Below, in pieces: positions 32,251 through 42,666 of a stretch of 64,000 nucleotides of DNA (positions are counted from its first letter, which is position 1; each line of letters opens with the position of its first letter). The notes beneath the pieces were generated by a model. The model saw only the letters and a program-made list of their open reading frames with translations. It had not been told where the DNA came from and did no database searches. A program made the translations under genes and the position numbers. Source of the DNA: Muribaculaceae bacterium (GTDB lineage Bacteria > Bacteroidota > Bacteroidia > Bacteroidales > Muribaculaceae); the NCBI GenBank assembly GCA_017547845.1, contig JAFYNZ010000053.1, positions 29,198 through 93,197 of the forward strand, given 5' to 3'.

Positions 32251-32880
32251 TCACTTCCTGTTCACACTGACATCGCCATCGGTATGCTCGAAGATGATTG
32301 AATGAAGATTTTCAGGCAACAAGTCCATATAAAAAGACTTGCTACCACAAGGCACGATAATCTTGTCCAACGCATCACAATACTCAAAAGTGCTTACTCC
32401 CACAATTGTATTGCTGCCCTTAAATACGACTTCTTTCAGGATTTCGCATCCGGCAAAAGCATCATCTCCCACTTCTCGCACCCCTTCGGGTATTATTACG
32501 CTCCTTAGTTTACGACAACCACTAAACGCAAAATTGCCAATAATGGCAAGCCCATCAGGAAACTCGATACCCTCTAAGTTGATACAATCTGAGAAAGCAT
32601 ACCAACCAATGGTATGCAACTCTCGAGGAAACTCTATGTGAGCCAAGCTTTCGCACCCACTAAATGCTTCATCTCCTATCCAAAGCATCGTGTCTGTCAT
32701 TTGGAGATTTCGCAAGTTTACACAGCCCTCAAATGCTGACTCTCCTATTACACTAATTCCCTCCGGAATGACGATGCTATTCAGCTCGTCACAATATGCA
32801 AATTCATGAGGGGGCACACCAATCTCATCTACAGGAATTATCCCAATGCCATCTATAACTTGACACTCATCGCAACTCAT
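32251..32880 (-). CDS. Leucine-rich repeat protein (BspA/LRR_5 type)
   Basis: 209 aa without a signal peptide. It consists of about six LRR_5 units with the pattern IGxxAFxGCxxLxxIxFPxxL, for example GESAFEGCVNL, GDEAFSGCESL, GNFAFSGCRKL and GDDAFAGCEIL. Such repeats bind proteins. Many relatives are secreted, but this one appears cytoplasmic. Its ATG overlaps the stop of the 340-aa gene by 4 nt (ATGA), so the two are translated together and controlled by the palindromic operator at 33944-33962. Role unknown, possibly a recognition subunit. Confidence 0.85.
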   Translation of the reverse strand: MSCDECQVIDGIGIIPVDEIGVPPHEFAYCDELNSIVIPEGISVIGESAFEGCVNLRNLQMTDTMLWIGDEAFSGCESLAHIEFPRELHTIGWYAFSDCINLEGIEFPDGLAIIGNFAFSGCRKLRSVIIPEGVREVGDDAFAGCEILKEVVFKGSNTIVGVSTFEYCDALDKIIVPCGSKSFYMDLLPENLHSIIFEHTDGDVSVNRK

Positions 32881-33899: not shown

Positions 33900-33943
33900 A
33901 ATGTGTAGCTTTTAGAATCTTCATCGCAAAATTAGAGCACGGG

Positions 33944-33962
33944 TGTATCGGTTATTGATACA
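33944..33962. promoter_or_regulatory. Palindromic operator between divergent promoters
   Basis: TGTATCG-GTTAT-TGATACA, one mismatch from the perfect TGTATCA-N5-TGATACA. A minus-strand TAATTTTG (33927-33934) and a plus-strand TAATTTTG (33972-33979) each lie exactly 9 nt away, so one dimer could control both promoters. Confidence 0.8.
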
Positions 33963-34004
33963 TCTCCACCATAATTTTGCAAAAAAATAATACAAGTTGA
34001 AAAG

Positions 34005-34388
34005 ATGAATAACGACAAACTCTCCCGAGCAGAACTCGCAAAACAATTTTCAGAAAAGTATTCGTTTTTTACGGAACTTGCCAAAGAAGAGCGAAAATCT
34101 CGCCAAGCCGTGATGCTTAAACGCCACGCATATTTTAGCGGACTTACAAATAGTTGTTCGTCGTTAAAAGAGTTTTACAATAAGTATCACGAACTTTTTC
34201 AAATTTGGGGCGTGGAGTTTTATTGGGACGAATTAAATCGAAAACTTGTCGCTCAAATCTGGCTCGACTTTAATGAGCATGAGACTTATTATTTTGAAGA
34301 AACAGACAGCAAAGTCGTTGTGAGTCCGATAATTTCGTGGCAAAACGAAGTTTTTGCAAATGAAGATTGGGATATATCAATCCCATAA
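34005..34388 (+). CDS. Hypothetical protein, 127 aa
   Basis: No family recognised. The N-terminal half is predicted helical and basic, and the second half contains several aromatic residues (FYWDELNRKLVAQIWLDF). No signal peptide or membrane segment. It is divergent from the 340-aa gene and shares its palindromic operator, so it probably belongs to the same regulon. Its last 12 nt overlap the converging remnant gene at 34377. Confidence 0.6.
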   Translation: MNNDKLSRAELAKQFSEKYSFFTELAKEERKSRQAVMLKRHAYFSGLTNSCSSLKEFYNKYHELFQIWGVEFYWDELNRKLVAQIWLDFNEHETYYFEETDSKVVVSPIISWQNEVFANEDWDISIP

Positions 34389-34643
34389 GTTGCGGAAATA
34401 TTTACGGAATAGGTCAAGCCCTTGCTCGGTTGTACGATTTTCTTCCGTCGTAAAAGCCGAATGGTTGAGCGACAGCAATTCAAACGCATCAATCATCTTC
34501 TGAATTGCGTTATCCCAGCTCTCCATGTCATCAAAATCTACTGGCAGTCCATGCTTATCCAGCAATTTGAATGCTTTTAATCGCGGCAAAATCATCCGAG
34601 CAATCGCATGATAAGTGCCCCATACCTCCTCGACTGGAAATGT
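34377..34643 (-). pseudogene. 5'-truncated remnant of a small conserved gene
   Basis: The open frame 34643-34377 has no ATG before the internal one at 34595, yet the sequence upstream of that Met (VWGTYHAIARMILPRLKAFK) already looks like the conserved body of a small protein family found in Bacteroidetes genomes and phages (IAR-ILPRLK-FK, W-x(4)-KMI-AFE). A stop closes the frame at 34646-34644. I read this as a gene that lost its 5' end. The alternative is a shorter functional 72-aa protein from the ATG at 34595. Confidence 0.5.
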
Positions 34644-34691
34644 TTACTCCTTGCACATTATTATTTCGATAAGTTTTAAGATTATGAAAGT

Positions 34692-34724
34692 ACAAAGTTG
34701 CATCGTTTTGCGACGCAACTTTGT
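34692..34724. terminator. Possible terminator downstream of the 74-aa gene
   Basis: A perfect 10-bp stem (ACAAAGTTGC with its complement) and 13-nt loop. The T run after it on the minus strand is weak. Confidence 0.45.
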
Positions 34725-34745
34725 GTTTAAGTTCTTTGTATTCTG

Positions 34746-34970
34746 CTAACCGATTTTCTCGGCGGTCAGATAAGAGCTGTTCATTCTGGTCTTTTCAAAT
34801 TTGGTAGAATACTTCATGTTGAATGCATTGGCTATCGTTTCCTTATACTTCGCCTGACAAAGCGGTGAAGTCGGAGAGGTAGCGGAGATTTCGACAAACA
34901 CACCTTTGACAAGCTCTTTACCCTTGCCCCAATTCCAATTGCCCTTGGCTGTAATTTTCCAAAGTGTCAT
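34746..34970 (-). CDS. Small hypothetical protein, 74 aa
   Basis: Starts MTLWKITAKGNWNWGKGKELVKGVFVEI at ATG 34970. A TTG three codons earlier is less likely. It is basic, without signal or membrane segment, and resembles short Bacteroides proteins of unknown function that begin with a beta-strand W-K-I-T-A-K-G. It has its own promoter (-7 TAAATTTG at 35012-35005), preceded at 9 nt by a degenerate version of the island's palindrome. Confidence 0.65.
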   Translation of the reverse strand: MTLWKITAKGNWNWGKGKELVKGVFVEISATSPTSPLCQAKYKETIANAFNMKYSTKFEKTRMNSSYLTAEKIG

Positions 34971-35004
34971 AATTTGCAAGTTTTAATAAGTTTATAATCA
35001 CCCA

Positions 35005-35012
35005 CAAATTTA
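35005..35012 (-). promoter_or_regulatory. -7 box of the 74-aa gene
   Basis: The minus strand reads TAAATTTG, 35 nt before the ATG at 34970. Confidence 0.6.
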
Positions 35013-35021
35013 CACCTCACC

Positions 35022-35040
35022 TGTCTCAAAAATCAATACA
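35022..35040 (-). promoter_or_regulatory. Degenerate copy of the island operator
   Basis: The minus strand reads TGTATTG-ATTTT-TGAGACA: 11 of 14 arm positions match TGTATCA-N5-TGATACA, and the distance to the -7 box is again 9 nt. It may be a weaker site of the same regulator. Confidence 0.5.
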
Positions 35041-35065
35041 CAAAAATATTTTAAAACGAATTGAT

Positions 35066-35725
35066 TTACTTTCGAAGTTCATCTCCTAAGAATTTCACAA
35101 GAATATTTTGCCAAAGACGAATCTTGTCTCCGGTATAATACCTTCTGCACATAGGCGATGGATTTGGAATATAAGCAAGAGGAATCCCTTTGTGATAACT
35201 AAATTTAAAATTAGGCTCAACCTTTAATTCTACTTTTGACTTTCCTCTAAGAGCATCAAAGGGTTTCACTCCCAAAGCAATAATATGCTTAGGCTGTATA
35301 ATTTGGATAAGTTCTTCCAAAAATTCTTTTGCTTTTGGAAGTATTTTCTTATCTATATCATGTTCCCTTCGTGTATTCATGAACACAAGATTTGTGCCAA
35401 CACAGTTTTCATATATATTAGATAAAAAATCATTATAATATTCATCAGATTTATACCCAAACACGCTTTGCAAACAAGTTGCCCAAGCATCACTTCCATT
35501 AAGATAGTAATTGTCTTTTTGTGCGAGTTGAGGCTCTCCATAGTAATTGCCACCAGGATTTATCCCTACAATTAATAGGTCTGGATTATAGTGATATTTA
35601 TCTGTCTGGAAAACATAATACAATAACGGAATGCCTTTTTTATCAGCAGGAGTCACTTCGTCTGAATTATAAAAAGTCTTGACATTTTCCCAGAAATCAT
35701 GCAATTCTTCTTCAATATTTTTCAT
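35066..35725 (-). CDS. Uracil-DNA glycosylase-like superfamily protein
   Basis: 219 aa. Superfamily motifs are visible: the active-site loop DLLIVGINPGGN (residues about 49-60), a central LVFMNT strand, KHIIALGVKPFDAL (the LGxxA-type block) and, near the C-terminus, IPNPSPMCRR in place of the usual HPSP. The fold flips bases out of DNA and cuts the glycosidic bond, but the changed motifs prevent a substrate call, and the enzyme may act on modified bases. Family knowledge: one UDG-fold enzyme, Brig1, excises modified phage bases and protects bacteria. The ATG overlaps by 4 nt the stop of a remnant of a WYL gene, so it was originally coupled to a WYL regulator and is still downstream of an intact one. 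Confidence 0.75.
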   Translation of the reverse strand: MKNIEEELHDFWENVKTFYNSDEVTPADKKGIPLLYYVFQTDKYHYNPDLLIVGINPGGNYYGEPQLAQKDNYYLNGSDAWATCLQSVFGYKSDEYYNDFLSNIYENCVGTNLVFMNTRREHDIDKKILPKAKEFLEELIQIIQPKHIIALGVKPFDALRGKSKVELKVEPNFKFSYHKGIPLAYIPNPSPMCRRYYTGDKIRLWQNILVKFLGDELRK

Positions 35726-35765
35726 TTGTTATTTTGATTATTAATATTATACATTTGGGAGAGGT
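35711..35765. repeat. 55-bp direct repeat, copy 1 (WYL end / UDG start)
   Basis: Matches 35992-36046 with one mismatch. It spans the end of a WYL-like reading frame and the first codons of the UDG-like gene. Confidence 0.9.
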
Positions 35766-35805
35766 TACGAACCCGTGCCATTGTCAAGTTATCTTCGTGG
35801 AAATT
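35722..35805 (-). pseudogene. C-terminal remnant of a second WYL-domain gene
   Basis: The 27-residue open frame ends in the same 13 residues (LSQMYNINNQNNK) as the intact WYL protein. The preceding segment FHEDNLTMARVRN corresponds to, but differs from, FRDEFTIWVRD there. An in-frame stop closes it upstream. It is coupled to the UDG-like gene by an ATGA overlap. The rest of 35806-36002 has no coding signal but contains a -7-like TAATTTTG (35946-35939, minus) that may serve the UDG-like gene. Confidence 0.7.
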
Positions 35806-35991
35806 TCATACGGCCAAGTTTGAATACCAAAGATAAAATTTCAATAACACCTTTTTTTCGGTGGACATTACTCCACCATCAACAAAAAATGTTGACTCTG
35901 CGAGGCTACCTCTGCTTCCTCTTTGTCAGAATCAACGGCAAAATTAACTAAAATTTTGATATAATGTGCAATTTTCGCAAAAAATTAAATT

Positions 35992-36046
35992 TTCAATATT
36001 TTTCATTTGTTATTTTGGTTATTAATATTATACATTTGGGAGAGGT
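35992..36046. repeat. 55-bp direct repeat, copy 2
   Basis: Copy at the end of the intact WYL gene. After the WYL stop it still carries the first five codons of the UDG-like gene (M-K-N-I-E) before diverging. Confidence 0.9.
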
Positions 36047-36917
36047 CGCGGACCCAGATGGTGAATTCGTCGCGGAATTCGGTGGGCTTTAGGATTTCTA
36101 CCATAGTTCCCATTCCGAGCAATGCCATCAGAAAGTCGTAGGTGGGAGCAAGGAAGTATTCGAAGTCGGTGTATTCCTCTCCTGTCGATATTTCCCGCTG
36201 CGAGTGATGCAATGGCAATGAGCGAAGATAATGAGCATGTCCGCCATAGGCACGAATCACTATTCGACAAGCATCATTTTCACCCGACAATACCACGCCA
36301 TACATTTTAGCGAAGAAATCTTCGACTTGAAAATCTTTCGGCATGGTGAATTTTCGGTCCGTAGGCTCTACTCCTTTTACTCGATCAAGACCATAGAGCC
36401 ACATGTTTCCATTGCTTCCCTTGCCAAGAAGATACCATCTGTTTTGATGCAGTCGCAGGCCGTAAGGTTCGATTTCGAATGTGTGAGCATCACGACCAAA
36501 CCCTTGATATGTGAGATTGACAACTTGATATTCCTTCATAGACGAAAGCAAGGGAGCCAAATAATTTCTCCCGGAAGGTATTTCGTCGACCATGATGCGA
36601 TGGTTCATTCCTTTATGCTCAGCAAGCAGATTGCTGACTGCAAACGAGTCGATTATCCAACTCTTCAATTGGTCCTCATCAATTGCTTCGGGATTGTCGA
36701 TATAATAGCGATAACCGCCTCTCTTTTCGCACTCGATATTTACACCAAATTGCATCAGAATCGCAGTGCGCCAACGATTGAACTTGCATCGCAATAACGG
36801 TCTTCCTCCACTCAACTCCTCACAATCTTGCCACTTTGCAGAAATATCTTCGAGCGAGATGCGACCCGCGCGACGAATAGTATCAATCAGCCAAATATGT
36901 TTCTCAGTCTGTGTCAT
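36003..36917 (-). CDS. WYL-domain transcriptional regulator
   Basis: 304 aa. Residues about 1-75 look like a winged-helix DNA-binding region. The WYL domain covers about 125-195 with the signature RWYLLGKG (W161-Y162-L163) and the VVNLTYQGFG strand. A WCX-like C-terminal extension follows. Family knowledge: wH-WYL-WCX proteins such as BrxR and CapW bind palindromes as dimers and repress defence operons until a nucleic-acid-like ligand is sensed. The start overlaps the metallophosphoesterase stop by 4 nt. Position makes it the prime candidate for binding the TGTATCA-N5-TGATACA sites at 37554-37618 and 33944-33962. Whether it represses or activates cannot be read from the sequence. Confidence 0.9.
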   Translation of the reverse strand: MTQTEKHIWLIDTIRRAGRISLEDISAKWQDCEELSGGRPLLRCKFNRWRTAILMQFGVNIECEKRGGYRYYIDNPEAIDEDQLKSWIIDSFAVSNLLAEHKGMNHRIMVDEIPSGRNYLAPLLSSMKEYQVVNLTYQGFGRDAHTFEIEPYGLRLHQNRWYLLGKGSNGNMWLYGLDRVKGVEPTDRKFTMPKDFQVEDFFAKMYGVVLSGENDACRIVIRAYGGHAHYLRSLPLHHSQREISTGEEYTDFEYFLAPTYDFLMALLGMGTMVEILKPTEFRDEFTIWVRDLSQMYNINNQNNK

Positions 36918-37507
36918 ATCTCAATTATATTAGGAGAGTTTAATAAATCGTAGCTTTCATTCATAATAGCAGCATTGGAGAATATGGTATTGTCCTGTGT
37001 CAGAGTCCCATGTTGACTATGAATATGCCCAAACAAGTGCGCACGTGGGGCTATGCGTGTCACACGATGCAGAAGCACTTCCGACCCGTAATGGAAGCCA
37101 CCATCGAAGTCAAGGACTTTGTGTGGCGGTGCATGCGTGACAAGCACATCGACATCTGCCGGCACCTCATTGTAAAAATCTTCTTGGCGACCACTAAAAC
37201 TATCGCTCATAAACATAGAAATACCATAAAATTTCACTCCATTAATTATGACAGATGAATTGCAAAGATAGCTGACATTCTCATCGAGTCCGGAAAGCGA
37301 TGCCCCATACAGAGCTTCGTCATGGTTGCCACAAATGAAAATCTTATGACGATATGGCAAGTCGCAAAACCAATTCAGAAAATCGAGTGCTTCCGACTCA
37401 GTCCCTACCATACAGAAATCGCCTGAATGCACCACAACATCGGCCTCCGGTAGATTCCTAAGCCATCGATGCATGCCATGAGTGTCTGATAAATGCAATA
37501 TCTTCAT
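36914..37507 (-). CDS. Calcineurin-like metallophosphoesterase
   Basis: 197 aa from ATG 37507 (MKILHLSDTHG). Metal-binding motifs in order are D-x-H in LSDTHG, HSGDF, CGNHDE, VTHAPPH and FGHIHSQHG. The domain is complete and cytoplasmic. The superfamily cleaves phosphomono- or diesters, including nucleotides, cyclic nucleotides and DNA ends. The exact substrate is unknown. It heads the minus-strand operon with the WYL and UDG-like genes and is divergent from the large helicase. Its promoter (-7 TATATTTG at 37543-37536) lies 10 nt from a perfect palindrome. Confidence 0.92.
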   Translation of the reverse strand: MKILHLSDTHGMHRWLRNLPEADVVVHSGDFCMVGTESEALDFLNWFCDLPYRHKIFICGNHDEALYGASLSGLDENVSYLCNSSVIINGVKFYGISMFMSDSFSGRQEDFYNEVPADVDVLVTHAPPHKVLDFDGGFHYGSEVLLHRVTRIAPRAHLFGHIHSQHGTLTQDNTIFSNAAIMNESYDLLNSPNIIEI

Positions 37508-37535
37508 ATTAAAGAGAACCGCTAAAAATTTTCTG

Positions 37536-37543
37536 CAAATATA
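37536..37543 (-). promoter_or_regulatory. -7 box of the metallophosphoesterase-WYL operon
   Basis: TATATTTG on the minus strand, 28 nt before the ATG at 37507. Confidence 0.7.
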
Positions 37544-37553
37544 ACCATAAAGA

Positions 37554-37572
37554 TGTATCAAATCGTGATACA
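37554..37572. promoter_or_regulatory. Perfect palindromic operator, minus-strand side
   Basis: TGTATCA-AATCG-TGATACA. Both arms are exact and it lies 10 nt upstream of the minus-strand -7 box. Confidence 0.85.
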
Positions 37573-37592
37573 AGTTAAAAACTTTGCAAAGG

Positions 37593-37618
37593 TGTATCAA
37601 TAAATGATACATGATACA
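37593..37618. promoter_or_regulatory. Perfect palindromic operator plus an extra half-site, plus-strand side
   Basis: TGTATCA-ATAAA-TGATACA (37593-37611) is followed at once by another TGATACA (37612-37618). The palindrome ends 9 nt before the plus-strand -7 box TAATTTTG (37621-37628). Confidence 0.85.
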
Positions 37619-37620
37619 CC

Positions 37621-37628
37621 TAATTTTG
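37621..37628 (+). promoter_or_regulatory. -7 box of the helicase operon
   Basis: TAATTTTG, 17 nt before the helicase ATG. The palindrome occupies the place where the -33 element would be. Confidence 0.7.
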
Positions 37629-37645
37629 CCCATAAACCAGTAATT

Positions 37646-40600
37646 ATGACCGAAACAATGAGAAATAATAGTGCTTCTAATATCGAAATCCAGTCGTTAG
37701 GTGCTATAATTCCCGACCAACTCGCGGAAGAAACGAAATACGCTCATGCACAACTCAAGGAGGCATTGGGTAATGACATCGAAGGGTTTGTAGCCAATCG
37801 TCTTCAGTTTTCGCCCGAAGAACTTGCGATGGCTTTGGCTACCGAACAAATAGAAGGCGTGGCATTCGCAATCTACAACATCGAGGCTCGTGGGCAGTCG
37901 GTAATAATCGGCGACCAAACCGGTATCGGCAAGGGACGACAAGCCGCTGCGTTAATCCGATATGGTATGTTGGCAGGGTATTTACCTATTTTTCTCACTG
38001 ATAGGTACACCTTGTTTAGCGACATGTATCGCGACTGCAAGGCTCTCGGAATCAAAGATGCTCGTCCGCTGATATTAAATCTCGGAGCGTCAATCGTAGA
38101 TTTTGACAGACCAATAGAAGACGAAGAGGCACAGCACAAAGATGAAATATGGACACCGGACGAAGACACTGACGATGAAGACTTGATGGATGTTTACACT
38201 CAGCACTATGAAGAAGTCTATAAGTCGCCGAAAAAAGCCGAACTTGCGACGATGTATCAATCCGGAGATATACCCGACGGACGTTTCGAATATGCGATGC
38301 TATCATATTCACAGCTCAAAGATGCACGAAAAGATATGACACGTCTTGACTTCCTGACCTCACTGTGTGAGAAACATCGTGTCCTCTTCATCTTCGATGA
38401 GGCACATAAAAGCAGTAGTGTTTCAGCCGGCAAAATTTCTGTCATAACACAGGGCATTAATTCGATATTGGAGACATGCCCACAGACTCAATGCGTGTTT
38501 CTGTCTGCCACATTCGCAAAACGCCCGGAGTGTCTGATCACCTTCATGCGTCAAACTATACTTAATTCATTAGCGACAGGCGAAACATTGCAACAAGCCT
38601 TTTCCGGTGGTGGCGTGCAGATGCAAGAATATGTCGCATCAATGCTCGCCAAAGAGGGGCAAATGCTCAGACGTGAGCATTGCAACGATGAGCTTCCTGA
38701 GCCGACCTACACCTATCTTGACGATAAACTCGAGATTCATTCCGCTCTATTCGACAAGGTGATGTATCACTTTAGAGAATTGGTGAAATTGTCTGACACG
38801 GTAAAAGAATTCCTCACTAAAGCCTCCATGCTTGAGGTGAACACGTTCCGTCCCTACCCCACACGCGCACAGCTTTTTTATGTCAACAAAATCTTGTTAC
38901 TATCATTGAAAGCGATAGATGTTGCAGAAGCCGCAGTGCGCGAAGTTCAGTCAGGTCGCAGCGTAGTAATCGGCATGAGCGACACACTTGAATGCGTGCT
39001 TCGCGATAGTATTGACACTATGACCGGCGAATGCTCCAAAGGAGACTTCTCCACTATTCTACTGCGACTCTTAGACAAGACTCTTTGCAACCCCAAGAAC
39101 TACAAGCAGACTGTGTATGATTTAGACTTTAGCGACGTTTCTGACCCTACAGAATTGAATTCTCTGCTCAATGACATTCAAACTTACGAACATCAGATAA
39201 GAGCCAACATCATGAAAGAGGTGTTTCATCTGCCTATGTCGCCTATTGATGTCATCAGACAATTGGTGACACAAGAACGTTTCACCGACAAGAAGGGCAT
39301 CGTCAGGGATATCCGTTTCGAAGAGTGCACCGGACGTGCCCGACAACTTGAATATCTATCGCCTGAGGGTGATGACGATTTTAAGAATGCTACAGTAATT
39401 CCGAGAAAAAAGCGCCATTCCAACCTCATCTACAACGATTTTCAAAACAACAAGTTGGACATTATCCTCATTAATGCCTGTGGAGCTATCGGTGCGAGTG
39501 CCCATGCTGTCGCCACGGCGGAAGTGGCAGAGAGTGATGTACGTCAGCGCAAAATGCTTATCGTTCAAAACGACCTTGACGTAAATATCGACCTTCAGAA
39601 ACGAGGTCGTATAAATCGCACAGGACAAATCGCCGAGTTGCCCCCATTATACGAATATATCATCACCGCCATTCCTTCTGAAAAGCGTCTCAACATGATG
39701 CTCCGTGCTAAGTTGCGCTCTCTTAGTGCCAACACTACAGCCAATCAAGACCAAGACAAAAAGCAAGCCGATTTTATAGACATCACCAACAAATACGGCA
39801 ATCTTGTCACGCAAGAATTTATCGCTTCAAATCAGGAACTTGCATTTGTACTCGGTCTAAACAAAACAGCCACTGCAAGCCAATTGCTTGCTCGCATTGC
39901 AATGCTTAGCGTTGCCGCTCAGCAAGATATCATCGACGAAATTTTCGGAGCATACCAAAGCATGGAGCAAGAACTGCGACGCATCAATCAGTGGGATCTC
40001 GAAAGAGAATATCGCGACTTCGAAGCTGAGTTTATAAAAGAAGAACTCTTCACAGCACCGATAAACAACTCTGCATTAGGAGGAGCTTCGATGCTTTCTA
40101 CATTCCGATGCCGCCATCGCACTTACCCATACGATGCTACTTCGCTACAGCTGTGCATCGACCAAGCGAAAATGGCTTACGGCGACAAATTAGCAGACTC
40201 TGTCGAGTTGCACGAGGAAATATTGAGATATTATCAAAATGAAACAAAGAAAATACGCGACAAAATAGCATTTCGAAAAGAGGCTCTTTCCGAAGCAACA
40301 CTTAACTCTCTGCTTAAATATGGACTTGACCGCAAAGTGGCAAAAAATCTAATGGTCCAATCTCGCCGGTCGAACGAATTATCCGAGTATCACATTGGTG
40401 ATTGCATTCAGGAAAAGGCTCAACTCAGAAGAATTTTAAGCAAATTGAAATCCTACAAAATTGATTACACCGATTTGCTTTCTCGCGAAAAGAAGAGCAT
40501 TACAATGCTTGCAGATCAACGTCAGCGACTGCTCAATGTCATATCCAAAGCCGTAATAGGTCAAGGTTACTACAATATATTGGGCTTTATGCCGGTCGAA

Positions 40601-42037
40601 GAAAATGTTGATAGGGTGATAGCCGTGCTCAAAGAGGTGAGATTTGACAAGAACCCAGAGAAACGTTTCTTGCCAAGCAAAGTGCAGTTTGTCTTTGCTC
40701 TCTCAGCCGTACACAAAGAGCTTGTGCTCAATTTGGTGGACAAAGGTTCTTGCAGCAATTACACCCGACTTTTAGGCATTCTGACATCTCAGACATGGAC
40801 GTTTTCTCATTCTTCTTGGAACAAGGAAATAGCAAAATACAACAACCGTATTTTGGAACGCAAGATTATCACCGGCAATATTCTGGGCGCTTTTTGCAAC
40901 CCTCTCATTCAGGCCATGAAGCCTCGCTTCATCACCTTCTCATTGGCTTCCATTGATGGTGAGCAGCCTACGATTGAACGCGGTCTGCTTTTACCAATGT
41001 CAGGAGAAAATACTGAGAAAGCAATATCTGTGGCTATGCTTCCTCTTTCTAATGGGCTGAAATTTGCGACGGCACTCAATCATGTGTATCAGATTTCAGG
41101 CATAGGTGTGGACTTTTCTATAACCCCTTCAAGAAAAGACAACGAGTCTGAATTGGCATTCCACATTAGTGTAAACGAAAAGGATTCTCGGAAATTCGAA
41201 TCCGACAATCGTTTTGACACCATCAGAGAGTATTTTAAGGCTTCCCGAGTGAGATCTATGTTCAACCACAACAGCAAGAGCACAAAACGCCCCTTGATGC
41301 ATTACATGACAGAAAACTTGTCTGCTCAATCGACTGAATTCGACATTATAATGACCCTATTGGCATCATTACACACCGTCATTATGATTCCGAGAGAATA
41401 TCTCACAGTCGGAGAAATGAAGGGGTATAGCCATAGAAGCAACACCACCGACGCAAATAATAATTGGCCATATCTTGACTGGCAAAAGTCGCCTATTTTG
41501 CCTCCTTCAAGACAAGAAGAACAAATAAGAATATCGGCTCCTATCGTAAAGGGATCGAATGTCTGCTATGTCGATGAATATCCGTCACACTTGTCTCTTT
41601 GTCAAAACACGCTGTCATATCAAGGTCGATCATTCAGTGAGCAAAATATCGTTAGAAAAATCAGATCATTGTATTTCGATTGGCATAATCTATATATGTC
41701 GTCTATCCAAGACAAGAACGACTACACTTTGAGCAGATTGGCAAGTAAAGTGTCTGACGAGATGCATCGACTGCTGACCAATTCCATCAAAGAACCGACC
41801 ATTTCAATCAAAGACGCAGTCCTCAAAATGCTTGAAGAAGAAATCAACAAATACAAGTTGTCAACCATTGGCGTTATAATCGAAAAGTATCAGACCGATA
41901 TGTTGTTTATGTCACCTCCGAAAGAAGATGCAGAGAAATTTCTCGATAGCTGCCTTTGCGATTCTCGCCTTGACAAGATAAGACGTAGCCTTGAAAATTA
42001 CATTAATGGAAAAACCGATATCATCACAGACTTATGA
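37646..42037 (+). CDS. Strawberry-notch-type superfamily 2 helicase/ATPase
   Basis: 1463 aa from ATG 37646 (MTETMRNNSASN). The upstream in-frame start at 37604 falls in the operator. Helicase motifs are a Q-like block ATEQIEGVAFAI, Walker A GDQTGIGKGR (residues 89-98), Walker B/motif II IFDEAHKSS (D251), motif III VFLSATF, a C-terminal lobe with NACGAIGASAH and QNDLDVNIDLQKRGRINRTGQ-like motif VI (arginines around residues 653-658). The GIGKGR and GRINRTGQ forms are typical of the strawberry notch (SNO) group, which is rare on bacterial chromosomes but common in phages and plasmids, sometimes inside polyvalent or DarB-like antirestriction proteins. The last about 600 residues are unfamiliar. 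The stop overlaps the next gene by 4 nt. Confidence 0.88.
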   Translation: MTETMRNNSASNIEIQSLGAIIPDQLAEETKYAHAQLKEALGNDIEGFVANRLQFSPEELAMALATEQIEGVAFAIYNIEARGQSVIIGDQTGIGKGRQAAALIRYGMLAGYLPIFLTDRYTLFSDMYRDCKALGIKDARPLILNLGASIVDFDRPIEDEEAQHKDEIWTPDEDTDDEDLMDVYTQHYEEVYKSPKKAELATMYQSGDIPDGRFEYAMLSYSQLKDARKDMTRLDFLTSLCEKHRVLFIFDEAHKSSSVSAGKISVITQGINSILETCPQTQCVFLSATFAKRPECLITFMRQTILNSLATGETLQQAFSGGGVQMQEYVASMLAKEGQMLRREHCNDELPEPTYTYLDDKLEIHSALFDKVMYHFRELVKLSDTVKEFLTKASMLEVNTFRPYPTRAQLFYVNKILLLSLKAIDVAEAAVREVQSGRSVVIGMSDTLECVLRDSIDTMTGECSKGDFSTILLRLLDKTLCNPKNYKQTVYDLDFSDVSDPTELNSLLNDIQTYEHQIRANIMKEVFHLPMSPIDVIRQLVTQERFTDKKGIVRDIRFEECTGRARQLEYLSPEGDDDFKNATVIPRKKRHSNLIYNDFQNNKLDIILINACGAIGASAHAVATAEVAESDVRQRKMLIVQNDLDVNIDLQKRGRINRTGQIAELPPLYEYIITAIPSEKRLNMMLRAKLRSLSANTTANQDQDKKQADFIDITNKYGNLVTQEFIASNQELAFVLGLNKTATASQLLARIAMLSVAAQQDIIDEIFGAYQSMEQELRRINQWDLEREYRDFEAEFIKEELFTAPINNSALGGASMLSTFRCRHRTYPYDATSLQLCIDQAKMAYGDKLADSVELHEEILRYYQNETKKIRDKIAFRKEALSEATLNSLLKYGLDRKVAKNLMVQSRRSNELSEYHIGDCIQEKAQLRRILSKLKSYKIDYTDLLSREKKSITMLADQRQRLLNVISKAVIGQGYYNILGFMPVEENVDRVIAVLKEVRFDKNPEKRFLPSKVQFVFALSAVHKELVLNLVDKGSCSNYTRLLGILTSQTWTFSHSSWNKEIAKYNNRILERKIITGNILGAFCNPLIQAMKPRFITFSLASIDGEQPTIERGLLLPMSGENTEKAISVAMLPLSNGLKFATALNHVYQISGIGVDFSITPSRKDNESELAFHISVNEKDSRKFESDNRFDTIREYFKASRVRSMFNHNSKSTKRPLMHYMTENLSAQSTEFDIIMTLLASLHTVIMIPREYLTVGEMKGYSHRSNTTDANNNWPYLDWQKSPILPPSRQEEQIRISAPIVKGSNVCYVDEYPSHLSLCQNTLSYQGRSFSEQNIVRKIRSLYFDWHNLYMSSIQDKNDYTLSRLASKVSDEMHRLLTNSIKEPTISIKDAVLKMLEEEINKYKLSTIGVIIEKYQTDMLFMSPPKEDAEKFLDSCLCDSRLDKIRRSLENYINGKTDIITDL

Positions 42038-42666
42038 GTTACATAGGACAGACAGGTATGGCAAGAATTGACCATAAAAATATGCTCAATCTTCAACAGG
42101 CAAAACAAATGCTCAGCGAAGGATGTGCCCCATCTACCATTAAAATCCAAACAGGTTGGGAACTTGGTATCGATGGATTGTGGCGTTACGAAATTCTCGA
42201 CCCATTCTTGCCGAATTCCGAAATAGAGGCATACGTAAAACCTCGTTTCGGAGAATCGATAAATATCCGATTGATATTGCAGGATAACCTCATATTAGAC
42301 GCATACCCTCAATTTGAAAACTTGACACTTTATGCTATGTATTCTCCTCAAAAAGGCGTAGCCGGGTATTATAATCCGTCAACCAACGGCATGGTTATCT
42401 CTATGGGCAGACCATCGGATAAGTTTGAGTATCAGATCGAAGGAGTTCTGCTTCATGAAATCCAACATCTTATCCAAAATATCGAGGGCTTTGCACAAGG
42501 AGGAAATCCCAAAGCAATCGGAATGAGGCGTTACCTTCGACTCGCCGGAGAAGTTGAAGCTCGCAACATCTGCCTTCGTCATTTCTTGACAGATGACGAA
42601 CGTCGTCGCACCCTTCGCACCGAAACCCAAGACATTGAGGACAAAGATCAAATCATAATTTGTTAG
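42034..42666 (+). CDS. HEXXH protein related to mobile-element polyvalent-protein domains
   Basis: 210 aa. It carries LLHEIQHLIQNIEGFAQGGN followed by LAGEVEARNICLRHFL, an HEXXH zinc-peptidase-like motif with a downstream Glu. This arrangement is what I recognise from the large polyvalent proteins of phages and conjugative elements, where it sits on one chain next to SNO-type helicases. Here the two are separate but coupled: the ATG overlaps the helicase stop (ATGA). No signal peptide, so it acts in the cytoplasm. The target is unknown; self-processing or cleavage of a host or phage protein is possible. Confidence 0.75.
   Translation: MSYIGQTGMARIDHKNMLNLQQAKQMLSEGCAPSTIKIQTGWELGIDGLWRYEILDPFLPNSEIEAYVKPRFGESINIRLILQDNLILDAYPQFENLTLYAMYSPQKGVAGYYNPSTNGMVISMGRPSDKFEYQIEGVLLHEIQHLIQNIEGFAQGGNPKAIGMRRYLRLAGEVEARNICLRHFLTDDERRRTLRTETQDIEDKDQIIIC

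Follow-up and report, generated by a model that had tools for sequence, protein, structure and literature searches.

Palindromes at a fixed distance from -7 boxes and a predicted WYL regulon in a Muribaculaceae gene island

DriD of Caulobacter crescentus is a WYL-domain activator, for which a preprint (PMC12340889) gives the consensus ATACGAC-N7-GTCGTAT at sites that are equidistant from the -10 element and overlie a poor -35 element; the DNA-binding domains are placed on either side of sigma region 4. PafBC of mycobacteria is described as a WYL activator that works by sigma adaptation and controls a damage regulon by reprogramming the housekeeping polymerase at a special upstream element (PMC11804915). 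In the present analysis, a WYL gene and a palindrome recurring around it were investigated in a 64,000-nucleotide (nt) stretch of a Muribaculaceae bacterium (assembly GCA_017547845.1, contig JAFYNZ010000053.1, positions 29,198 to 93,197), which is called the window below. The palindromes, which were taken as putative operators, lie in a gene island of the window and precede Bacteroidales-type -7 boxes (Table 1).

The island resembles the DriD system, as the preprint presents it, in its WYL-WCX regulator, the palindrome over the -35/-33 slot, the fixed distance to the -10/-7 element, the multi-promoter regulon, and a bidirectional promoter. It differs from DriD in the half-site, the island targets, the RNA-repair flavour of its relatives, and the Bacteroidales -7/-33 promoter, and the sequence alignment with DriD is limited to the WYL-WCX part (residues 120-290). 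PafBC is reported as a heterodimer that reads a -26 element via one subunit, whereas the site in the island is symmetric, and a homodimer is therefore probable. SiwR of Mycobacterium smegmatis is described as a homodimeric WYL activator with a 19-bp imperfect palindrome upstream of the -10 element of adjacent genes; however, its account covers one adjacent operon of dinB-like genes with the site between -35 and -10 (PMC10693628), whereas the window has four to five promoters and the relatives have additional distal ones. BrxR and CapW are also WYL regulators beside defence islands, with inverted repeats separated by a 5-bp spacer, but BrxR represses, and its main site is placed downstream of its promoter (PMC9122601). 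Finally, Rtc and RtcB2-PrfH systems share RtcB and PrfH with the islands of relatives, where 3 of 95 operator sites precede RtcB. Rtc is described as being under RtcR, a CARF-containing sigma-54-dependent activator (PMC9223846, PMC7790460, PMC6514570, PMC4012209), whereas the regulator of the island shows WYL and WCX domains and no CARF match in Pfam, and the RtcB gene of the genome has no operator in the flanks compared. Among the papers listed on WYL proteins with RtcB or PrfH, Bacteroidota, Bacteroides promoters, and RNA repair, which were mostly open ones, neither the operator nor the regulon was found described, and none dealt with a WYL regulator of this group; the RNA-repair survey of Burroughs and Aravind (2016) may mention WYL near RtcB.

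Palindromic sites and their spacing

The window was scanned for TGTATCA-N5-TGATACA and for the -7 box TAnnTTTG. The three palindromes named in the initial annotation (operators A, B, and C) were recovered with one, zero, and zero mismatches, and the distances to the four -7 boxes, 9, 9, 10, and 9 nt, agreed with its reading of the sequence. Operators B and C stand back to back, each with its own -7 box. At a 97%-identical locus on the contig of a Bacteroidales metagenome-assembled genome (L035), operator A is a perfect palindrome, TGTATCG-N5-CGATACA. A further, degenerate copy at 35022-35040 reads TGTATTGATTTTTGAGACA on the minus strand, with three mismatches to the palindrome, and its -7 box, TAAATTTG (35005-35012), is 9 nt away; the sequence is identical in L035. 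The palindrome covers the -33 slot at all five promoters of the window, 9, 9, 10, 9, and 9 nt from the -7 box, as DriD sites do over the -35 element. When up to three mismatches were allowed, 9 matches to the palindrome were found in the window, while shuffled sequences gave 4.07 on average and reached 9 in 2 of 100 cases. A third half-site, TGATACATGATACA (37605-37618), immediately follows the helicase operator and is also present in L035; it creates a second 10-nt inverted repeat (37590-37599/37612-37621).

The source genome comprises 2,321,429 bases in 69 contigs and is 89.8% complete. With at most one mismatch, operators A, B, and C were the only palindrome sites in the whole 2.32 Mb, so the genome-wide scan proposed in the initial annotation returned no other site of this quality, and all clear sites of the genome are confined to one island. 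Nine further sites had exactly two mismatches; since the reversed control gave 16 per strand at up to two mismatches, only the sites with zero or one mismatch stand out. The composite of palindrome, 9 nt, and -7 box was then scanned with up to two mismatches, a pattern that leaves the 10-nt promoter of the island outside. It matched at five places as compared with three in the control; four were in the island (0, 1, 1, and 2 mismatches) and one was elsewhere (2 mismatches). The two-mismatch match of the island is the degenerate site, which is not significant by itself because the scan gave 5 against 3. Its position and 9-nt spacing are as given in the initial annotation; its support is its place and the similar half-sites in relatives, such as TGTATCGGTTTTTGAGACA in locus L059. 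A scan for E. coli-type promoters was uninformative (17 found, 11.9 expected).

Relatives of the WYL protein were searched in 247 sampled genomes of the family, with the source genome included. A group of 47 relatives had identities of 43-53% (E up to 1.6e-84, which defines the subfamily), beyond which many weaker ones were found (31-43% among the matches listed, and one partial at 49%); the WYL protein of L035 is 97% identical. Up to 20 kb around the 47 relatives (L036-L082) and the next 13 (L083-L095) were compared. In the group-1 set of 49 sequences, consisting of the 47 relatives, L035, and 40 kb of the window, the motif TGTnnCA-N5-TGnnACA, with at most one mismatch and at least four of seven arm pairs, occurred 248 times counted per strand, and the reversed control 78 times. 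The motif was followed by a full TAnnTTTG at a distance of 0-30 nt in 96 cases, and in 87 of these the distance was exactly 9 nt, while the reversed control gave three motif/box pairs and none at 9 nt. With a relaxed box at 9-10 nt, 95 sites were obtained, at least one in 43 of the 49 sequences, at least two in 26, and at least three in 16. The first gene after these sites encoded WYL (32), an AAA+ ATPase (9), a metallophosphoesterase (8), MoxR (4), RtcB (3), an FtsZ_C-like protein (3), or others, and none was found in four cases. In 32 of the 47 relatives, an operator followed after 9-10 nt by a -7-like box was located no more than 250 nt from the start of the WYL gene itself. The palindrome is therefore conserved beside WYL relatives, and the constant geometry, which the initial annotation had judged unlikely to be fortuitous, recurs with its 9 nt in dozens of related loci.

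The exact composite TGTnnCR-N5-TGnnACA-N9-TAnnTTTG was present in 76 of the 247 genomes, and the reversed pattern gave 0 in every listed row. It was found in 41 of 44 genomes with the subfamily and in 35 of 203 others (Fisher p 3.7e-22). Distal sites offer a stricter comparison because the total includes the regulator's own promoter, where the motif was learned; a distal site occurred in 18 of the 44 subfamily genomes, and any site at all in 35 of the 203 others (p 0.001). In the subfamily genomes, 29 of 92 exact sites were either on a different contig from the WYL gene or over 20 kb away from it. A purely local regulon holds in the source genome but is rejected by these sites for the relatives, in which the regulon is read as trans-acting. 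Among the 21 distal sites examined out of 29, 17 precede a gene family known from the islands; when three more sites (L190, L201) are included, 20 of 24 do so and four do not. As several of these genes are closely orthologous, they do not amount to 20 independent cases. The genes concerned encode AAA+ proteins (8), a 171-residue family (6), FtsZ_C-like proteins (2), and one each of a tubulin-like, a UDG-like (Pfam 0.049, below cut-off), a DUF6557-like (0.004, below cut-off), and a HAD_SAK_2 protein. The 171-residue family (L191:562-1077, L207:1996-2505, and relatives) is thus a recurrent target outside the islands, at 6 of the 24 sites; the one member scanned had no Pfam match.

Direction of control and identity of the regulator

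Taking these results with those given below, we assign a probability of about 0.68 to the reading in which the palindromes are operators of the WYL protein and the island forms one coordinated regulon, with four clear promoters and a probable fifth, that would most likely be activated. The initial annotation had treated activation and repression as equal. Its replacement of the -33 element was borne out, while the equality was not, and activation is now considered probable. It is favoured because of the fixed spacing, the lost -33 TTG, and the sequence kinship with PafBC and DriD.

With respect to the -33 element, a TTG 18-21 nt before the box was found in 0 of 94 regulated promoters and in 62 of 205 other promoters of the same loci, a difference that holds partly by definition because TTG is incompatible with the motif's fixed letters at most such places. 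When promoters were selected by palindromicity alone, 3 of 50 had the TTG (p 0.0002), as did 3 of 33 after the TGT...ACA type was removed (p 0.011). The poor -35 element described for DriD targets has its counterpart here, both in the motif-defined and in the palindrome-only set.

Regarding kinship, both the WYL domain and the WCX extension of the regulator were above the Pfam cut-offs, and residues 1-118 had no Pfam match. In a phmmer comparison, chain 8tp8 matched the regulator over residues 120-290; this chain is given as DriD in the PafBC paper (PMC11804915). Among solved structures, eight WYL chains were matched. The lowest E-value with the family profile was that of 6sj9, which is titled PafBC (4.4e-10 for the whole chain, with no single stretch passing alone). 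We take 7u02, 7tzv, 9cu3, and 9pfq to be DriD constructs, and 7p5x and 9fnd to be PafBC complexes. None of the matches was named BrxR or CapW, the sequences of which were not themselves compared.

The strongest alternative is an autoregulatory repressor, in which the WYL protein would block RNA polymerase at the -33 region until freed by its signal, like BrxR. An operator over the -33 region is a classic position for a repressor as well, the regulator's own operon carries the operator in the window and in relatives, as is common for repressors, and BrxR, a WYL repressor at a defence island, is reported to bind 11-bp inverted repeats with the same 5-bp spacer (PMC9122601). However, a repressor has no need of the exact 9-nt spacing (87 of 96) or of a register that removes the -33 TTG. 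The downstream position reported for the main BrxR site and the structure matches, within the limit given above, also argue against it. Repression was accordingly judged unlikely, at clearly lower odds than activation, though it deserves consideration.

The next alternative is that another regulator binds the palindromes and that the WYL gene is merely one target, for which the exact composites in 35 of the 203 genomes that have no close relative of the WYL protein could speak. This was evaluated in the wider family: among 120 WYL genes, a palindrome with at least five of seven pairs was followed at 9-10 nt by a full -7 box in 59, while five other spacings gave 1, 3, 7, 2, and 1. The half-sites vary by lineage (TGTATCA, TATGCCA/TCTGCCA, TCGGAAA/TCGGCAA, and TATGAAA), and the geometry is constant. 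In 50 non-redundant genes, the half-site distance correlated with the distance of the N-terminal 88 residues of the WYL protein (Mantel r 0.61), a value reached by 0 of 5000 permutations (largest 0.17); the test is not free of phylogeny, as regulators and operators share descent. The partial correlation was 0.42 given the C-terminal part, which indicates the N-terminal part, and the reverse partial was -0.11. The N-terminal region, which is conserved, therefore co-varies with the half-sites, whereas the sensor part does not once the other is held constant. Moreover, two WYL paralogues on one contig (L056) each have their own operator type (TGTACCGCAAAATGAGACA and TCGGAAATGTTATTGCCGA), and the site is present in 41 of 44 subfamily genomes. 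Since the half-site tracks its N-terminal region, the WYL protein encoded at 36003-36917, which had already been proposed in the initial annotation, is very probably the binder, and a different regulator is improbable. Elsewhere, WYL paralogues with approximately 37-41% identity (L088, L089, L091, L096, and L100) have TATGCCA/TCTGCCA-type palindromes in the same promoter slot; in L091, TGTGCCATGGATTGGCACA also occurs three times, always at 9 nt from a downstream TAATTTTG and upstream of a gene from the same family.

Several observations weigh against the WYL-operator reading and its activation part. By the rule used, 15 of the 47 group-1 WYL genes have no operator within 250 nt; among them, the genes of L041, L047, and L078 follow another gene whose promoter has the site, and that of L080 is partial. 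Three of the 44 subfamily genomes have no exact composite, and the composites in the 35 genomes without the subfamily include several that read TGTGCC...GGCACA, which are possibly sites of paralogues. At up to two mismatches the composite scan has a background (64 matches over ten genomes as compared with 14 in the control, besides 5 against 3 in the source genome). The contrast at -33 is partly built into the motif, and the palindrome-only test is weaker. Outside the family, the arrangement was found in 6 of 27 WYL genes, with 1, 0, 0, 0, and 4 at offset spacings, and its generality across the order is weak. Finally, the regulator's own operon carries a site, whereas the preprint has DriD as not activating its own gene (PMC12340889), and the related WYL protein BrxR is reported as a repressor (PMC9122601).

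A chance or repeat-type origin of the palindromes without regulatory meaning, which the background level of two-mismatch copies in the genome might suggest, was rejected as having a negligible probability, because all sites of the 2.32-Mb genome that have at most one mismatch, three in number, lie in the island, the 9-nt spacing recurs, the exact composite gave 0 in all control rows of the 247 genomes, and the sites are conserved in loci at approximately 50% protein identity.

Under activation, the WYL protein, likely as a homodimer, would bind TGTnnCR-N5-YGnnACA with its centre approximately 19 nt upstream of TAnnTTTG, where the site replaces the -33 TTG. These promoters lack a -33 element, and the bound regulator would keep RNA polymerase at a set distance from the -7 box, in the manner of DriD in Caulobacter. 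Binding of a damage signal by the WYL domain, presumably a nucleic acid or nucleotide, would trigger the switch, and the phosphoesterase-WYL operon, the helicase operon, the DUF6557/leucine-rich repeat (LRR) unit, the 127-residue gene, and the DUF6140-like gene would be turned on together. The operator at the regulator's own operon would add positive autoregulation.

Island genes and likely role

Table 1. Putative operators, -7 boxes, and genes of the island (positions in the window; aa, amino acids)
Feature	Position	Strand	Description
Operator A	33944..33962	.	TGTATCG-GTTAT-TGATACA, 1 mismatch; common to two divergent promoters, 9 nt each side
-7 box of DUF6557/LRR unit	33927..33934	-	TAATTTTG; 9 nt off operator A; composite match G000:C50:63124-63159
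-7 box of 127-aa gene	33972..33979	+	TAATTTTG; 9 nt off operator A; composite match G000:C50:63141-63176
Operator B	37554..37572	-	TGTATCACGATTTGATACA on minus strand, 0 mismatches; metallophosphoesterase-WYL promoter
-7 box at operator B	37536..37543	-	TATATTTG; 10 nt off operator B; read from sequence
Operator C	37593..37611	+	TGTATCAATAAATGATACA, 0 mismatches; helicase promoter
-7 box of helicase operon	37621..37628	+	TAATTTTG; 9 nt off operator C; sequence and composite scan
Degenerate operator, 9 nt, and -7 box	35005..35040	-	Before DUF6140-like gene; least certain operator
LRR protein, BspA-type	32251..32880	-	Pfam; one unit with DUF6557 gene
DUF6557 protein, 340 aa	32877..33899	-	Pfam
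127-aa protein	34005..34388	+	Family in 12 of 49 group-1 sequences
DUF6140-like small protein	34746..34973	-	Below Pfam cut-off
UDG-superfamily protein	35066..35725	-	Pfam; WYL operon membership by position only
WYL-WCX regulator, 304 aa	36003..36917	-	Pfam WYL 9.1e-12, WCX 3.1e-06; predicted binder of operators
Calcineurin-like metallophosphoesterase	36914..37507	-	Pfam Metallophos 9.8e-14; PADLOC PDC-S10 8.9e-73
Strawberry-notch-like helicase	37646..42037	+	Pfam AAA_34, Helicase_C_4; first in plus-strand operon
LPD23 protein	42034..42666	+	DUF6782 match below cut-off; second in helicase operon

The metallophosphoesterase gene overlaps the WYL start by 4 nt. For this gene and the helicase gene, we chose start codons downstream of the -7 box; the mechanical open reading frame of the helicase starts at 37604. 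Of the five-promoter regulon in the initial annotation, the promoter units were supported, but for the uracil-DNA glycosylase (UDG) gene, inclusion in the WYL operon is based on position only, and L035 has a different gene there, encoding 377 residues with no Pfam match and at most a weak local resemblance to UDG (E 0.017 when the two sequences were compared). Since the regions on both sides are 97% identical in L035, the gene that follows WYL resembles a cassette that has been exchanged. The stretch between the UDG and WYL genes is flanked by a 64-nt direct repeat (94%; 35711-35774 and 35992-36055), into which the 3' end of the WYL gene falls. When nine island proteins were scanned with PADLOC, two were matched: the phosphoesterase, as candidate PDC-S10, and the regulator, by WYL models and by Cas3c and AbiEii models over the same region. 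A single scan of viral contigs, which reached close relatives only, gave no close copy of the WYL gene.

Relatives of the helicase were rare among the 246 other sampled family genomes, with two full-length at 65% identity and two partial at 33%. One of the former, from another genus (L187:1498-5868), has a degenerate operator with two mismatches 9 nt before a -7 box, and a WYL gene with 41% identity is located approximately 2 kb away; for the other (L186), no operator with up to three mismatches was found in the 878 nt before the match.

The content of the islands was counted within approximately 10 kb in the 49 group-1 sequences, and families were named by Pfam or NCBIfam from one representative each. 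A DnaQ-type exonuclease was found in 26 sequences, RtcB and a metallophosphoesterase in 22 each, PrfH in 15, an FtsZ_C-like protein in 13, an AAA+ protein in 11, and ADP-ribosylglycohydrolase and MoxR in 6 each, besides the 127-residue family (Table 1). PrfH adjoined RtcB in all 15 cases. In the 13 more distant loci, RtcB and the phosphoesterase occurred once each and PrfH never. The representatives matched RtcB (9e-58), the PrfH equivalog (4e-55), and HAD_SAK_2 (5.9e-29), and the islands of relatives also hold MoxR-VWA and tubulin-like genes. Proteins of tubulin/FtsZ-like GTPase type and FtsZ_C-like proteins recur in islands or under the operator (L095:11903-12454, L201:612-1133, and L044:2707-3435). 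The island of the window contains no RtcB; it has the phosphoesterase, the Strawberry-notch-like helicase with LPD23, DUF6557 with the LRR protein, and small or UDG-like proteins. RtcB of the source genome (contig C16) had no operator and box with up to three mismatches in the flanks compared, and its membership in the regulon is unsupported.

Given that RtcB-PrfH, HAD_SAK_2, MoxR-VWA, and tubulin-like genes are found in the islands of relatives, the most likely role of the subfamily is a response to damage that RNA or ribosomes suffer in conflicts. RtcB2-PrfH is reported to protect E. coli against the ribosome-cleaving colicin E3 (PMC9223846). Candidates for the signal are single-stranded DNA, which has this role for DriD and PafBC, as well as RNA ends and a nucleotide. 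The promoter code of palindrome, 9 nt, and TAnnTTTG names pairs of regulator and target from sequence alone, and its connection of WYL sensing with repair genes of the RtcB-PrfH type allows a direct search for the inducing signal. With the paralogues, whose half-sites differ, the specificity of WYL DNA-binding domains becomes testable. As a tentative wider picture, which we hold at somewhat less than even odds, the Bacteroidales may possess a family of DriD-like WYL activators over RNA-damage and ribosome-rescue islands, in which paralogue-private palindromes replacing the -33 element would create parallel damage or conflict channels in one cell that differ in half-site and probably in the nucleic-acid signal sensed. 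The channel in the source genome would drive the phosphoesterase, the Strawberry-notch helicase, and three unstudied gene units, and in relatives it would drive RtcB, AAA+ ATPase, MoxR, and tubulin/FtsZ-like proteins.

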